Below are positions 21,578 through 27,186 of a stretch of DNA of 40,273 nt, piece by piece (the stretch's first letter is position 1; every line of letters begins with the position of its first letter). The notes under the pieces are model-generated. The model had not been told where the DNA came from and made no database searches. It saw only the letters and a program-made list of their open reading frames with translations. Made by a program: the position numbers and the translations under genes. The stretch lies in contig NZ_CACSIJ010000015.1 of assembly GCF_902705855.1 (NCBI RefSeq), positions 140,618-180,890 of the forward strand, written 5' to 3'. Source of the DNA: Zhongshania aliphaticivorans (GTDB lineage Bacteria > Pseudomonadota > Gammaproteobacteria > Pseudomonadales > Spongiibacteraceae).

Positions 21578-23848
21578 TTAAAAAATAACTTTAAAATCCA
21601 CACCATAGGTTAATGGGTCAACAACACCAACATGGTAGGTACCAATATCAGTCCCTGTTAAACCACCGGGTTGCGACACCCGATCATTGCCCAGTAAATT
21701 TTTGCCCCACAATGCCATTTCATAGCCGCCACCTGGGGTATTCCACGCCACCCGTGCATTCAGCAATTGTGTATCGTCGCCATAACCGTTAACGGTATTA
21801 AAGAATGCTTGATGGTCTTCATTACCCGACTCGGTGTTTTCCTCATAAATATAATCAACATGAAATAACAACAAGCCGTAATTAATCTCTGGAGACCAAT
21901 CCATCGTCAGGGTGTATTCCTGTGGCGACGACACATTGAGCTGATCAGCAACAATAAATTCTCCCTGCGCGTTGTAGTAGGCCTCTCGACTAGATTCCTG
22001 CTCCCGATAGGTATAAATAAGGCCGAAGCGCAGATTGTCACTTGCCAACCAATCAGCCGTTAGCTCTATGCCTTGAATATCTTCATCGGTATTGATAACT
22101 GTCGGCACCGCGCCATTACTCTCTGGGGTGCGCGACTCGATGGCTTCTTGCCGATCGTCAATAATCATTTTAAATAGGGCGACTTGGGTGCGAACGCGGG
22201 TGTCGAAAAAATCACCTTTAACACCAAATTCAAAATTGCTCACCACTTCTGGGTCTAGCGGCGCTTCGCGGGTGCCGGTATTTAATGAATCATAGCCGCC
22301 AGATTTATAACCGGTGGAATAACTCAAGAATGTCATCGCACCTTCTGTGATCTGATAATTTGCAACGACACGTCCGGTAATTTTATCCCAGCTTTCGGAA
22401 GCTGTTTCTAGCCCCTCGGAGTTAAAAAAGAAGTTCTCACCCAATGCCTGTGAGACTACAAAATCAGCTAGCGGCGCATCCCAGCTAAAAGACTTTTTGT
22501 CGTTGCTATAACGTAAACCGGTAATCACATTCAGGCGGTCGGTAATGGGAAAATCAAGGTCTGTAAAAAAGCCGTAGCTTTCAAAATCACCTTCGTTGGT
22601 CATGGTTTCGGTTACGTAATTGCCTGCCACCACACCGCCCAACAAGGTATTTAGTAAACCTTGAGGAATGCTCGCCATACCCGAGGCCAGCTCTAGCACC
22701 GTGCCATAGCCAAAGGTTAAAGCGGTTTGCTGGTAGGTGTCTTCCTTGCTGTAATTCGCGCCGAATACCGCGTCTACCCAATCTAGCGCAACATTAAATT
22801 GCATCTCGAAATAGGCGATATCTGAATCTTCAATATTATTGGTATCAACGTAGACCGACTCATCGGAGGTCGCATCTTCGTCCTGTAAATTATAAGTTTC
22901 GAAAGCGCGATAACTGCCGATCAAGGTCATGGTAGTTGCGTCGCTTAACTCATACCATAGCTTGCCGGTAAATCCCTGCATGTCTCTGGTTTCGCCGCCG
23001 CCAATCGCATCGGTCTCTAATTTTCGATCTGTCGGGTCGGGGTAATTTGAGAAATTCTCGCTAATACTAAGACGCGCCTGCGGGCCATTATCAACGCGAT
23101 CAATATCGTAGGCGAACTGCATGCTCAATCTATCGCTGGCTTCCCAGCGTAGGGCCAAACGCGCAAATTGATTATCTTGCTCGCCGGGGTCAGGGCTAGC
23201 TGTACCTTTATTGTCGATAACCGCATCGCGCTGGTTGTGCAGCAAATTCACTCGCAGGGCTAGAGTGTCACTAAGCGGGACATTCCCCATGCCTTCGACA
23301 CGAAACAAGTTGTAACTTCCCAACTTTGCCATTACAAAACCTTCGGTCTCTTCAAGGCTTGGCGCATTAGGAATAAAACTCACCACCCCCGCCGCCGCGT
23401 TGCGACCAAACAAGGTGCCCTGTGGGCCTTTTAAAACTTCTACACGCTCCATATCAGAAAACGGCACGGTAATCGCAGCACGCGGTAAATAAACACCATC
23501 TAAAAAAGTTGCAACCGAAGGGTCGCCTCCGGTACTGATATTTGAGCTATCGATACCACGAATCACAAACGAAGATTGGGTAGTACCGCCGCCCCGCACA
23601 CCGTCACCTACCTTCAAGCCTGGGATATACGCTTGAATATCTTCCATATTCAGAGCGCCGGTATTTTCCAAATCCTGATTGGTAAAGGTGTCCACCGTGA
23701 CCGGCACCGTCATCGCACTTTGTTCACGCTTTTGGGCGGTAACCACCACCTCCTCTAGCGCCAAGTTCTTCGCCGCGTAGGCCGAAGGTGCGCCTAGTAC
23801 CGCAAGACCAACCGCGTAAGCTATGCGATTTCTATTCATGGATTTCAT
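21578..23848 (-). CDS. TonB-dependent outer membrane receptor
   Basis: The 756-aa precursor has a signal peptide (cut near APSAYA-A, residue about 25), then a TonB-box-like LEEVVVTAQKR, a plug domain (about 45-150, with VEVLKGPQGTLFGRNAAAG), and a beta-barrel that ends in an aromatic Phe as outer membrane proteins do. It belongs to the broad class annotated as iron-complex receptors, but many of this subtype in marine gammaproteobacteria import sterols, hydrocarbons or other organics, so the cargo is unknown. Two ATG codons (23848 and 23839) are possible starts. A run of eight G lies directly before the first on the coding strand. It lies downstream of three cytochrome genes on the same strand, behind a hairpin. 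Confidence 0.95.
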   Translation of the reverse strand: MKSMNRNRIAYAVGLAVLGAPSAYAAKNLALEEVVVTAQKREQSAMTVPVTVDTFTNQDLENTGALNMEDIQAYIPGLKVGDGVRGGGTTQSSFVIRGIDSSNISTGGDPSVATFLDGVYLPRAAITVPFSDMERVEVLKGPQGTLFGRNAAAGVVSFIPNAPSLEETEGFVMAKLGSYNLFRVEGMGNVPLSDTLALRVNLLHNQRDAVIDNKGTASPDPGEQDNQFARLALRWEASDRLSMQFAYDIDRVDNGPQARLSISENFSNYPDPTDRKLETDAIGGGETRDMQGFTGKLWYELSDATTMTLIGSYRAFETYNLQDEDATSDESVYVDTNNIEDSDIAYFEMQFNVALDWVDAVFGANYSKEDTYQQTALTFGYGTVLELASGMASIPQGLLNTLLGGVVAGNYVTETMTNEGDFESYGFFTDLDFPITDRLNVITGLRYSNDKKSFSWDAPLADFVVSQALGENFFFNSEGLETASESWDKITGRVVANYQITEGAMTFLSYSTGYKSGGYDSLNTGTREAPLDPEVVSNFEFGVKGDFFDTRVRTQVALFKMIIDDRQEAIESRTPESNGAVPTVINTDEDIQGIELTADWLASDNLRFGLIYTYREQESSREAYYNAQGEFIVADQLNVSSPQEYTLTMDWSPEINYGLLLFHVDYIYEENTESGNEDHQAFFNTVNGYGDDTQLLNARVAWNTPGGGYEMALWGKNLLGNDRVSQPGGLTGTDIGTYHVGVVDPLTYGVDFKVIF

Positions 23849-23849
23849 G

Positions 23850-23857
23850 CCCCCCCC
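23850..23857 (-). repeat. Homopolymer G8 (coding strand) at the TonB receptor start
   Basis: Eight consecutive C on the plus strand, which are G on the coding strand, end one base before the first ATG. The tract is part of, or next to, the ribosome site (GAGAGAGG precedes). Slippage would change the spacing between that site and the start codon. Confidence 0.9.
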
Positions 23858-23878
23858 TCTCTCGCAAACACTCGTAAA

Positions 23879-23908
23879 CGCCTAATGCACCACACAGCGC
23901 ATTAGGCG
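23879..23908 (-). terminator. Hairpin between beta-helix cytochrome gene and TonB receptor gene
   Basis: CGCCTAATGC (23879-23888) and GCATTAGGCG (23899-23908) form a perfect 10-bp stem with a 10-nt loop, 12 bp after the stop of the upstream gene. On the minus strand the following bases (TTTACG) give only a weak T-tract, so it may reduce rather than stop read-through into the receptor gene, or it may protect the mRNA end. Confidence 0.55.
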
Positions 23909-23920
23909 CTTTAATAAAAT

Positions 23921-25315
23921 TTATTTGGTGACGTTCAACATAAATTCAGCGACTTCACGGCGTAAATCAGGTGATAAATGCCCCTGTGGTGGCATCGCTG
24001 GGTAATCTGTTCTTACCTTATGCGGTGCGGCAATATAGTCAGCAATCCCCTGCGGGTCATTGCGATACAAAGCCTGCACCGTTAGTGTTGGCGGGCCAAT
24101 CATGCGCATATTGTAGGCGTGGCAGCCAGCACATATACCTTGGTAAAGTAATTTAGTGCGATTCTCTGTTGTCACAACTTCATTCGGAGCGCCACCCGGA
24201 ATACGCATAGTTGTGATATCTGCCGTGTCTTTGCGCTCGCACTCGCTCCACTTTTTTACACCGAAGCTGGTGTAACGTTCACGATTAATAATGCAGTTAT
24301 CTGGCTCTTGGGCAGAACCCAAGTTAGCGAGAATGTCTGGGCCGCTGCGACTAAACTGAGTCAGCATCAACGCCTTTACGTCCGCCACCGGATCGGCGCC
24401 GTTATCAAACATTAAGTTGTCTAGGAACACCATGCGATCTGGATTGGGCTCTGACTCTGGATCGCTAGAAATATCCGTAATAAACGCCAAATCAGTCACG
24501 ACGATACCGGCGGTTTTATTACCTGACACAATATTGCCTTCCACCACCACGTCATCCGCAGCCATGACTACAATGCCAATACCTGCCGGAACCTTTGAAA
24601 CAATGGAGCCAGGCGCACCAAAATTCGCAGTGTTGTTATTCACTACAAAGTTATTACGCAGGATGACATCAAAGGTGGTTTTGATCGGTAGGCCTGGGGT
24701 AATAAACACCAATAAACCCGCGGTATTATCGTGGGCATAGTTGTTCTCGACCAAGGCGTGACGGGTGTTTTCAATTTCGATACCGGCGACGTTATCGAAG
24801 ACTTCGTTATGACGAACATCGACGTTGTCACACATGCCAACATAGATCGCTGCGTCTTCTATACCGCTTAATACGTTGTATTCAATGAGGCCATTTTTAC
24901 CAAACTGGGGGAAGATTCCGTACACGCCGGTGTCGATGACTCGGTTGTAGCGAATCACAAAATTATTGCCGGCCTGCCCCATAATGGCATTGCCTTTATA
25001 GTGGGTGATGGTTAACCACTCCACGGTAAAATCATTACCGGAATACAAGATGGCATCATTGCGCTTGCCCTCGCCTTCCATCACCGGCCATTCGCCATCC
25101 TGAACAACACCGCGAATAGTAATGCCGTCTTTATCGACATACACACTTTCTTTATAAGTGCCGGGATAAACCAAAATGACATCACCCGTCTCGGCTTTAT
25201 TCACCGCGCCCTGAATAGATTCGCCGTCTTTTACCGAGATTTCAGCCGCCATCAAACTCGGCGCGGCCACTAATAGGCTAAGCCACAACAGCCCTAGGGG
25301 GATTATTTTTGTCAT
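23921..25315 (-). CDS. Exported right-handed beta-helix protein with C-terminal cytochrome c domain
   Basis: The 464-aa precursor has a signal peptide (cut near LMA-AEIS, residue about 24). Residues about 30-330 are a right-handed parallel beta-helix of the NosD/PbH1 type, with repeated short turns such as GIEIENTRHALVENNYAHDN. A connecting region with two cysteines (NC.., EC) follows, then a class I cytochrome c domain of about 75 residues with haem site C395-AGC-H399 and a likely axial Met in AMPPQ. AAAGGAG lies 7 nt before the ATG, an excellent site. It is third in the minus-strand run cytochrome, di-haem enzyme, beta-helix, TonB receptor. The helix may bind a substrate or metal and the haem may pass electrons; I know no proven function for this fusion. 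Confidence 0.92.
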   Translation of the reverse strand: MTKIIPLGLLWLSLLVAAPSLMAAEISVKDGESIQGAVNKAETGDVILVYPGTYKESVYVDKDGITIRGVVQDGEWPVMEGEGKRNDAILYSGNDFTVEWLTITHYKGNAIMGQAGNNFVIRYNRVIDTGVYGIFPQFGKNGLIEYNVLSGIEDAAIYVGMCDNVDVRHNEVFDNVAGIEIENTRHALVENNYAHDNTAGLLVFITPGLPIKTTFDVILRNNFVVNNNTANFGAPGSIVSKVPAGIGIVVMAADDVVVEGNIVSGNKTAGIVVTDLAFITDISSDPESEPNPDRMVFLDNLMFDNGADPVADVKALMLTQFSRSGPDILANLGSAQEPDNCIINRERYTSFGVKKWSECERKDTADITTMRIPGGAPNEVVTTENRTKLLYQGICAGCHAYNMRMIGPPTLTVQALYRNDPQGIADYIAAPHKVRTDYPAMPPQGHLSPDLRREVAEFMLNVTK

Positions 25316-25348
25316 TGTTGCGCTCCTTTATGTCCAGAGTCTGGATGG

Positions 25349-26506
25349 TTAATGCGTCAATATTTGGGTCGCCACCGGCGTTAAGCCAGAGGGCACTTTT
25401 GCCGGTAGAACCGGCATAAAACTTTGATCAGTTAAGGTCTTTAAAAATGCGACTAATAAATCTAATTCATGATCCGTCAGATCCGGCTCCCAGATATGCC
25501 AGTGCAAACTCAAATGCTCGCCCTTTGGCACAGCATGACCACGTCCGCCGGTATAAAACGCGACGGTTTCTCGCAGGGTTTTAAAACGGCCGGAATGCAT
25601 ATACGGCGCCGTTAATTCTATATTCCTCAGGGTCGGCACTCTAAAGCCACCGCGCTGCGAGGCGTCGCCGGTAATGGCTTGTACTCCAGGGTCTAAGGCC
25701 GCGCCCTCCGGCTCTGGCGTACCAATCACCGCAATTTGCTGATTGGTAAATGCCGGCGGGGTATGACATTCCGCACAGCGGGCCACAAAGGATCGAAATA
25801 CATTCATGCCCTCAATTTCTGGCTGGGTAAGTACCTCGTGAAAGCCATTAGCGTATAAATCGTAGCGGCTACCTAAAGACACCAGCGATGATTGGAACGC
25901 CGCCAAGGCGGTGTAAACCTGCCCTAAGCTCAGCGGCTCATCATTAAAGGCCTGTTTAAATAATTCCTCATAATTGGCATTGTCTTGCAAACTTTTAAGC
26001 AGTTGGGCTGGGGTATTTGCCATTTCTTCTTGAGAAAATAGTGGCCCCTTCATTTGCTCTTCTAAAGACTTCGCCCGCGCATCCCAAAATAATTCTCGCA
26101 AAAAACCCACATTCCACAGCGTGGGCGCCGAACGATGCATGGCCTCACCGTGGCGACCAACACTGCCCGCCAAGCCATCAGTAAAACCCCGCGCAGGTTG
26201 ATGACAGGATGAACAAGCCATATCCCCATCTACCGACAGCAGGGGATCAAAAAACAATAGACGACCAAGATCGATTTGCTGGGCAGTAAAGCCCTCTCGC
26301 AATGGCGGCATGCCCGTTTTTAAGCCGCCAACACCAGACTCCTGCAAGGAGGCGTAGCCACTGTAAAAACTTTGTAAATAACAGCCACCGTCGCGCGAAT
26401 GGAATCCTGCAGGACAAATATCACTCAAGCGCCATTCAGCATCGGCAGCCAGCGGCAACGCCATTCCAATTACCCACAACAGCAGTGGGCGTAATCGTCG
26501 CTGCAT
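25349..26506 (-). CDS. Di-haem cytochrome c peroxidase/MauG family protein
   Basis: The 385-aa precursor has a signal peptide (cut near ADA-EW, residue 23). Two haem sites are visible, C98-SSC-H102 and C244-AEC-H248, with the family motifs LFFDPLLS, SAPTLWNV, LFWDARA (W141) and PYMHSGRFKTLRETV. An N-terminal extension carries two more cysteines (C31, C42) that may form a disulfide. Members reduce hydrogen peroxide (CcpA) or perform oxidative protein modification (MauG, MbnH); which applies here cannot be read from motifs. Only 2 bp separate it from the upstream cytochrome gene, and 33 bp from the downstream beta-helix gene, so the three form an operon. Confidence 0.94.
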   Translation of the reverse strand: MQRRLRPLLLWVIGMALPLAADAEWRLSDICPAGFHSRDGGCYLQSFYSGYASLQESGVGGLKTGMPPLREGFTAQQIDLGRLLFFDPLLSVDGDMACSSCHQPARGFTDGLAGSVGRHGEAMHRSAPTLWNVGFLRELFWDARAKSLEEQMKGPLFSQEEMANTPAQLLKSLQDNANYEELFKQAFNDEPLSLGQVYTALAAFQSSLVSLGSRYDLYANGFHEVLTQPEIEGMNVFRSFVARCAECHTPPAFTNQQIAVIGTPEPEGAALDPGVQAITGDASQRGGFRVPTLRNIELTAPYMHSGRFKTLRETVAFYTGGRGHAVPKGEHLSLHWHIWEPDLTDHELDLLVAFLKTLTDQSFMPVLPAKVPSGLTPVATQILTH

Positions 26507-26508
26507 CG

Positions 26509-27186
26509 TTAATCTGCCAAAGATTGGATATAGGCAATCACGTCTTTAGCGATTTCGTCGTCTGGTAGCGTCTTGCCCATCATGCCCATTTGATATCCGT
26601 AACGATCTGACTCATCCGCGCCACGAAGCCCGTCGCGGAAGTGGTTAAACTGTTTCAGTAAATACCAGTCCTCGACGCCGGCCAAGGCTGGCGCTTGAAG
26701 CTTCTCATTACCTTCGGCGGCGGGGCCATGGCAAGCACCGCACAAATTCGAGTAATAATCAGCACCTCGTTTAACATTCCCTTCCAGCGTTTTAGCTGCG
26801 GGCTTGGCTTTAAAACTAGCGATATGGCCAACAACCGCTTTAACAGCATTGTCGTCGGGCAAGGTTTTTGCGATCACCTGCATTTGTGCGCCGTAGCCAT
26901 CTTTAGGGTCGTTACCACGTAGGCCACTTCTAAAGCCAAGTAGCTGGCGCTCTAAATACCAATCTTGCTGATTGACCAGTGACGGCGCATTTAAGGCCGC
27001 ATTGCCCTCGCCCTCAGCACCATGACAAGCAGCGCAAGCTGCATACAGCGCTTTGCCGTCTGCCGCCGTCGAATGCTGCAAAGCCTGTAGTGCTTCTGCG
27101 GCCGCTTTTTCGCTACTCACATCTGGCGCGTTATCATTACTACACGCCACCAGCATTACACTTAGCAATAGCACCAATCGTTTCAT
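26509..27186 (-). CDS. Lipoprotein cytochrome c with two haem domains (c4-like)
   Basis: I chose the ATG at 27186 (225 aa), because it opens a lipoprotein signal MKRLVLLLSVMLVAC (lipobox Cys15) and AGGAT lies 8 nt upstream; an earlier start at 27219 adds an unlikely basic stretch. The protein is an internal duplication: haem sites C51-AAC-H55 and C149-GAC-H153, each followed by the repeated block DWYL..QL..FR.GLRG...D.YG.QM and TLPDD. It is probably tethered in the periplasm and passes electrons to or from the di-haem enzyme encoded 2 bp downstream. It is the first gene of the cytochrome operon. Confidence 0.94.
   Translation of the reverse strand: MKRLVLLLSVMLVACSNDNAPDVSSEKAAAEALQALQHSTAADGKALYAACAACHGAEGEGNAALNAPSLVNQQDWYLERQLLGFRSGLRGNDPKDGYGAQMQVIAKTLPDDNAVKAVVGHIASFKAKPAAKTLEGNVKRGADYYSNLCGACHGPAAEGNEKLQAPALAGVEDWYLLKQFNHFRDGLRGADESDRYGYQMGMMGKTLPDDEIAKDVIAYIQSLAD

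Follow-up and report, generated by a model that had tools for sequence, protein, structure and literature searches.

A TonB-dependent receptor clade linked to TIGR03805 β-helix genes and a candidate periplasmic redox module in Zhongshania aliphaticivorans

We analysed four minus-strand genes within a 40,273-nucleotide stretch of the Zhongshania aliphaticivorans genome (assembly GCF_902705855.1, contig NZ_CACSIJ010000015.1, positions 140,618 to 180,890). The whole of this stretch is called the window. The genes encode, in order, a lipoprotein cytochrome with two haem motifs (cyt2), a di-haem enzyme resembling MauG and MbnH, a parallel β-helix protein of family TIGR03805 with its own haem motif, and a TonB-dependent receptor (TBDT). 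Because related sets recur in many bacteria, the four genes are probably parts of a single system. Enzyme and β-helix genes are nearly always together. The receptor falls in a single clade, mostly co-located with β-helix genes in several families. The link of the receptor to β-helix genes is real but looser than that between enzyme and β-helix protein.

An earlier note on this DNA had proposed a receptor/β-helix/di-haem module, to be abandoned if homologues rarely occurred together. The gene association held, as did the order of the four genes and their five CxxCH motifs, which coordinates and domain matches bear out. The receptor is not specific to the five-haem set; β-helix proteins with a different haem partner, of the SO2930 family, have the receptor too. 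We tentatively read the four genes as a receptor-coupled periplasmic redox module for import, binding by the β-helix protein and di-haem oxidation, with belief and doubt almost in balance.

Recurrence of the enzyme and β-helix genes

A genome contig collection was scanned with the β-helix protein and 68 loci were recovered. Sixty-one are of the trio type, named after the three cytochrome genes (L003-L062 and L069; L and G denote our locus and genome numbers). The MauG-like gene adjoins the β-helix gene in 56 of the 61, and the remaining five lie at contig ends. Hence, the gene adjacency at this locus is not chance. The two-haem cytochrome was detected in 49/61 loci. It went undetected, despite available flanking DNA, in flavobacterial loci L036, L048, L055 and L062, and in L059. 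Distribution of the trio is patchy and extends to Flavobacteriaceae.

Similar results were obtained with a draw of 194 genomes from the order. Thirty have a trio-type β-helix protein (at least 500 bits) and 29 of these have the enzyme beside it. The 30th (G045), where the enzyme was not seen, has a locus cut by a contig end. One gene separates enzyme and β-helix genes in G177; it encodes a 356-residue protein resembling tetratricopeptide repeat proteins (L077:8029-9099). Natural fusions of enzyme and β-helix protein were found at five loci (L064-L068), one from Acidobacteria and four from Thermoflexus/Chloroflexota, with both domains scored on L064 only. Given the near-constant adjacency and the natural fusions, we conclude that enzyme and β-helix protein act together.

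A receptor clade beside TIGR03805 genes

In all 13 of the closest loci (L003-L014 and L016), and likewise in L015 and L018, the next gene downstream is that of the receptor, in the same orientation. It is directly upstream in L019, L022 and L026. Loci of genus g10 have it downstream, separated by a transglycosylase gene in L073 and by 0.7-0.8 kb in L086 and L087; those of family f47 have it upstream (L090, L091). Family f48, from another order of the class, has the receptor in 5/5 trio genomes of a draw from the phylum. Four f48 loci (L175, L177, L179 and L180) carry the receptor, a gene of ~350 residues, cyt2, enzyme and β-helix genes in order; in L178 the receptor is divergent. In L175 and L177, the two loci tested, the ~350-residue gene encodes an AraC-type regulator whose N-terminus is hydrophobic by eye. 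Overall, a receptor of some kind is next door in 21/61 trio-type loci. The other 40 show no neighbouring receptor; in 11 of these the contig stops short to one side of the locus or to both. In flavobacterial loci L048, L051 and L055 the gene directly after the β-helix gene encodes a SusC-type receptor (L048 was scored with the SusC model, and the presence of SusD was confirmed for L051 and L055). The window receptor is of a different type from these SusC/SusD systems of Bacteroidota.

A neighbouring receptor is unsurprising in itself, because the window's own genome (G000) has 71 TBDT match rows, some of them pieces of one protein. It is the clade that counts. Our first tree contained 57 receptors, with SusC types left out. 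Twenty trio receptors formed one clade (100/99), together with those of L017, L075 and L076. The L017 receptor is 7 kb from a trio, the genome of L075 (G180) has its trio elsewhere and that of L076 (G003) has no trio. The 29 receptor paralogues from the window's own genome all fell outside the clade, as did five other receptors.

In the phylum draw, the best TIGR03805 proteins (at least 406 bits) are of a second type, with an SO2930-family (TIGR03806) di-haem partner. This partner is fused or adjacent in 30/30 fetched cases, plus L181 and L182. Trio-type β-helix proteins fetched from the same draw have the MauG-like enzyme in 6/6 cases. With hhalign the two partner families align over only 44 columns, which surround a single CxxCH motif (probability 19.6%, E 0.0012). 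The window's own genome also encodes a TIGR03805-TIGR03806 fusion of 1109 residues (L072:8962-12291, G000:C12), its TIGR03806 part below the cut-off; thus, both β-helix types coexist in this genome.

Where SO2930-type loci were fetched with wide flanks, a high-scoring receptor adjoins in 6/20 (L186, L188, L189, L190, L198 and L200), and L192 has a low-scoring receptor 3.4 kb away. A second tree of 52 sequences was built, in which the window receptor was represented by its 93% relative from L003. Eleven MauG-type and six SO2930-type receptors were intermingled in one clade (100/100), with L017, L075 and L076. The 29 own-genome paralogues, L192 and two further receptors fell outside. Since the clade also adjoins TIGR03805 proteins with the SO2930 partner, the receptor follows the β-helix protein and not the MauG-like enzyme.

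Co-occurrence across genomes was consistent with this. The phylum draw comprised 398 genomes, scored with a receptor match threshold of 1e-130. A TIGR03805 protein is present in 45/398 and a receptor match in 13/398; all 13 receptor-positive genomes carry a TIGR03805 protein (hypergeometric 9e-14). By genus, all 12 receptor-positive genera are among the 33/213 with a TIGR03805 protein (3e-11). The 13 genomes span six families. Receptor and β-helix matches are 136 bp to 4.9 kb apart in 12 of them and unlinked in G015. For 11 of these 13 genomes the receptor is included in one of the trees (the window's own as WINDOW_TRIO); G015 and G395 were assigned by score alone.

In the order draw, 25/26 receptor-positive genomes carry a TIGR03805 protein. 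The exception, G113, has only a weaker receptor match with a stop inside. G113 (genus g10) and G171 (genus g1) have neither trio nor high-scoring receptor; five and six of their respective congeners have both. A receptor profile, A6, was built from 20 trio-adjacent receptors. When genera represented in A6 were excluded, 11/11 receptor-positive order genomes had a TIGR03805 protein and 0/141 order genomes without a TIGR03805 protein had a receptor match. The window receptor alone, used as query, matched in 9/30 trio genomes versus 1/164 others. For the MauG trio only, the same genus-excluded subset gave 4/16 versus 3/162 (p 0.0013), with a 760-bit cut chosen after the scores were seen. Across the full order set, the receptor was scored in 18/30 genomes with the trio versus 3/164 without; counted by genus, this is 6/15 versus 2/81.

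Protein features, locus layout and neighbouring genes

The enzyme scores 224.7 bits with the MbnH model TIGR04039 (cut-off 362.85) and 171.2 bits with TIGR03791, the model for MauG of tryptophan tryptophylquinone biosynthesis (cut-off 443.85). It has no TIGR03806 match. Its best PDB sequence match is the di-haem peroxidase 1iqc (1.6e-50). Residue Y318 is constant in 41 aligned rows and aligns with a Tyr of MbnH (6e1c and the MbnH of the window's own genome), which we take to be a haem ligand in MauG and MbnH; peroxidases 1iqc and 2c1u have Met there. Hence, by alignment, the second haem would have the Tyr ligand of the MbnH/MauG type and not the Met ligand of bacterial cytochrome c peroxidases. 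The peroxidase pocket (FWDxRA, Gln, Pro and Glu) is retained in trio enzymes, with Gln, Pro and Glu invariant in the 41 rows. Trio enzymes keep an HWHIW motif without variation, and the fusion and MbnH rows shown do not have it. In an enzyme tree, trio enzymes form their own group, separate from MbnH and the two peroxidases; placement of the fusions is unsure owing to long branches.

The β-helix protein belongs to TIGR03805, and its C-terminal domain scores 25.8 with Cytochrome_CBB3, slightly under the cut-off of 27. The closest named relative reaches 97% over its length. An AlphaFold2 model has a mean predicted local distance difference test score (pLDDT) of 85. Among the matches listed, its nearest relatives of known structure are β-helix enzymes of a generic kind (alginate epimerases and DFA-IIIase, for example), with template modelling (TM) scores of at most 0.50 by model length. 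Thirty-five conserved positions are common to trio, fusion and SO2930-paired β-helices, including Y132, D154, Y158, E180, E182 and N183. In our reading of the strand register, several conserved residues stack across adjacent turns, a predicted ligand groove. The MauG-paired β-helices, both trio and fusion, retain Tyr54 and Tyr106, which are not kept in nine SO2930-paired rows. W76 is present in 44/47 trio rows and replaced by Arg in 5/5 fusions. No Trp is conserved in both trio and fusion β-helices; hence, maturation of Trp to kynurenine was rejected as a general mechanism.

Both CxxCH motifs of cyt2 are without variation across 34 aligned rows, and the protein has a lipobox-like LVAC. With an alternative TTG start its gene would reach 27219. 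The receptor matches 21 NCBIfam subfamily models (siderophore, haem, B12 and others), none of them above cut-off (best TIGR01783, 133 versus 223.5). Coordinates are collected in the table. The gaps between cyt2, enzyme, β-helix and receptor genes are 2, 33 and 72 bp. Genes at fetched loci were called with a simple open reading frame (ORF) script.

Table 1. Features of the four-gene locus in the window
Feature	Position in window	Strand	Remarks
cyt2, two-haem cytochrome c lipoprotein	26509..27186	-	ATG start; two Cytochrom_C stretches, 83.5 bits
cyt2 CxxCH sites	27022-27036 and 26728-26742	-	CAACH and CGACH
MauG/MbnH-like di-haem enzyme	25349..26506	-	Pfam CCP_MauG, 175 bits
Enzyme CxxCH sites	26201-26215 and 25763-25777	-	CSSCH and CAECH
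Putative Tyr ligand Y318 of enzyme	25553-25555	-	by alignment
Parallel β-helix protein, C-terminal cytochrome c-like domain	23921..25315	-	TIGR03805, 198.4 bits (curated cut-off 141.5)
β-helix protein CAGCH (C-terminal)	24119-24133	-	single CxxCH
RNA hairpin between β-helix and receptor genes	23876-23911	-	16-pair stem, centroid -27.6 kcal/mol
TonB-dependent receptor, β-helix-associated clade	21578..23848	-	PF07715 (Plug) 75.7 bits; PF00593 (barrel) 113.9 bits

The hairpin ahead of the receptor gene, described in the earlier note as weak, is in fact strong, but its z-score is only -1.86. No conservation of its sequence was seen among 13 relatives compared and there is no T-run on the 3' side. 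A role as terminator was therefore rejected. No RNA family reaches its gathering score in the window.

A Baeyer-Villiger monooxygenase (BVMO) operon next to the four genes had been taken as a hint of the substrate, which is not supported. Of the 13 closest loci, just two (L004 and L009) have the operon next to the module, and it was rejected as a module part; in the window a convergent TetR gene separates the two, and L014 has a weaker BVMO-like ORF ~6 kb from the module. The upstream S8 protease and DUF2804 genes (clusters in 8 and 9 fetched loci, close relatives only) were also set aside. The same applies to Luminiphilus/Halieaceae neighbours, read by sequence only as rpoD, dnaG and tsaD, which are lineage-variable and were not taken as functional.

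Other neighbours recur. A gene of the aldehyde dehydrogenase family lies 1-84 bp past the β-helix gene in gammaproteobacterial loci L042, L047, L049, L050, L053 and L058 (assigned with Pfam on the L047 copy; three of the six loci are labelled Woeseiaceae). The same protein cluster occurs in L048 and L055, after SusD and one further gene. A haloalkane dehalogenase-like gene lies 23-154 bp past the β-helix gene in Luminiphilus/Halieaceae loci L027, L029, L030, L031, L034 and L069 (392 bits versus a cut-off of 241, scored on the L034 copy only). Both are leads to the substrate. AraC-type regulators with hydrophobic N-termini adjoin the module in Gammaproteobacteria (L177:5901-6995, L175:12075-13115, L026:4333-5406 and L054:6691-7740), and a LytTR regulator gene does so in Flavobacteria (L036 and L055). 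These adjoining regulators suggest dedicated sensing.

A genuine MbnP/MbnH pair is found ~24 kb from the trio, ~10 kb past the right end of the window (L142:10273-12362, G000:C15). Both proteins exceed their cut-offs (MbnP 278 bits, MbnH 470.8 bits). This is the sole MbnP match in the genome (C15:191965-192753) and it is beside the other MbnH; the window enzyme has no MbnP next door. Near the pair are a FeoB-like gene, another TonB receptor and a DUF1775 gene.

Known systems, rival explanations and meaning

The earlier note had regarded the module as new. Receptor, MauG-like enzyme and partner have a precedent in MbnT/MbnH/MbnP; parts of PMC3621798 describe MbnP/MbnH pairs near TBDTs. The gene set of the window is a new variant. 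It resembles MbnT/MbnP/MbnH (TIGR04052, TIGR04039) in having a TBDT near a MauG-like enzyme and its partner, and in the enzyme Tyr. However, the window partner is a TIGR03805 β-helix protein with its own haem, not MbnP, and the enzyme is below the MbnH cut-off and keeps the FWDxRA motif. TIGR03805/TIGR03806, already a named family pair, is alike in having a β-helix protein and a c-type di-haem partner, adjacent or fused, with a receptor of the same clade in 6/20 loci. It differs in that the window partner is MauG-like (CCP_MauG) and outside the SO2930 family, the window β-helix protein carries an additional cytochrome domain, and the set includes a further cytochrome with two haems. The receptor link and the MauG-paired type are the new side. 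Parts of papers that mention SO2930/SO2931 or TIGR03805 (PMC10986466, PMC4837345 and PMC3584217) give no function there, and literature searches found no description of the gene set, the receptor link or the MauG-paired type.

Likenesses to other systems are more distant. The enzyme shares a domain family and peroxidatic pocket residues with bacterial di-haem cytochrome c peroxidases, but differs from them in the Tyr and in its β-helix partner. NosD, a periplasmic copper protein, is also a β-helix; however, the TIGR04247 match of 55.3 bits is far under the cut-off of 300, and no nos gene was found among ten window proteins scanned.

The tentative redox module can be sketched as follows. A ligand would pass the outer membrane by way of the receptor and be bound by the β-helix protein, probably in a groove lined by F/Y135, D154, Y158, E180, E182 and N183, and the MauG/MbnH-like enzyme may dock on the β-helix protein. 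The enzyme would use H2O2 or O2 for an oxidation at high potential; its target may be the ligand in its bound state or, by analogy with MbnH/MbnP, a β-helix residue. Electrons could pass through cyt2 and the β-helix cytochrome domain to or from the respiratory chain. It is also quite possible, though we believe it with some reserve, that the receptor clade is a dedicated importer for TIGR03805 β-helices. Receptor and β-helix protein would then be a constant binding unit, combined with one of two unrelated di-haem modules, MauG-like or SO2930, to import and oxidise on arrival one ligand class.

The main rival is maturation of the β-helix protein by the enzyme, by analogy with MbnH, which acts on MbnP. 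The enzyme, with the β-helix protein as its sole substrate, would oxidise a β-helix Tyr or Trp to make a metal or cofactor site, and the receptor would import the matching metal complex. The MbnH-like Tyr position, the fixed enzyme/β-helix pairing with its natural fusion, and Tyr54 and Tyr106 all fit this, as do the known MbnP/MbnH pairs near TBDTs, with a genuine pair 24 kb away here. Conversely, trio and fusion β-helices share no Trp, and known copper genes number 0/10 among the window proteins scanned. Moreover, TIGR03805 proteins with the other di-haem partner have the same conserved patch and receptor clade, which indicates a ligand rather than a modification. We consider maturation possible but rather unlikely. 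We favour ligand delivery and oxidation, since the haem partner changes from one type to the other but the receptor clade and the conserved patch do not.

The enzyme might instead be a cytochrome c peroxidase fed by cyt2 for peroxide defence. The β-helix protein would then serve for structure or docking, and the receptor would be a general iron receptor. The match to 1iqc and the invariant peroxidatic Gln, Pro and Glu are consistent with this, and a CCP_MauG search of the window's own genome found only one other protein, an MbnH. The Tyr in place of Met, the fixed β-helix pairing and the association with one receptor clade argue against it. We judge peroxide defence improbable. Alternatively, the receptor could be an independent neighbour, leaving a unit of three cytochrome genes. 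The 72 bp gap with its strong hairpin and the 40/61 loci without a neighbouring receptor point that way, but the clade, the co-occurrence and the same-strand receptor directly downstream in every one of the closest loci do not. This alternative is already disfavoured and very improbable.

Several observations weigh against a receptor-coupled redox module. The trio-only association is weak by family (4/13 versus 2/34, p 0.04, with 47 families assumed). No receptor match was found in 26/51 β-helix genomes of the order or 32/45 of the phylum draw, absences that are soft since at most five (order) or two (phylum) receptor candidates were scored per genome; indeed, G475 was missed in the phylum count, yet its adjacent receptor scores 655. 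Because so many β-helix genomes are without a match, import by the receptor is not essential to the core. In four f40 genomes the receptor is unlinked to the trio, and G003, G015 and G047 have a high-scoring receptor, no trio and the other TIGR03805 type. Fusions occur in Chloroflexota, which are not known to have an outer membrane; the pocket Gln and Pro are gone from the Thermoflexus fusion row shown. The enzyme half of an AlphaFold2 fusion model is poor (predicted TM score, pTM, 0.52), and the groove was assigned from conservation and predicted strands.

So far no function has been assigned to the TIGR03805 proteins or to their haem partners. The tie to a receptor means that they probably act on an imported substance, and makes the receptor a reporter for finding the ligand. 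MauG-type chemistry would gain another natural partner system, in addition to methylamine dehydrogenase and MbnP. What was an annotation dead end becomes a testable uptake and oxidation system.

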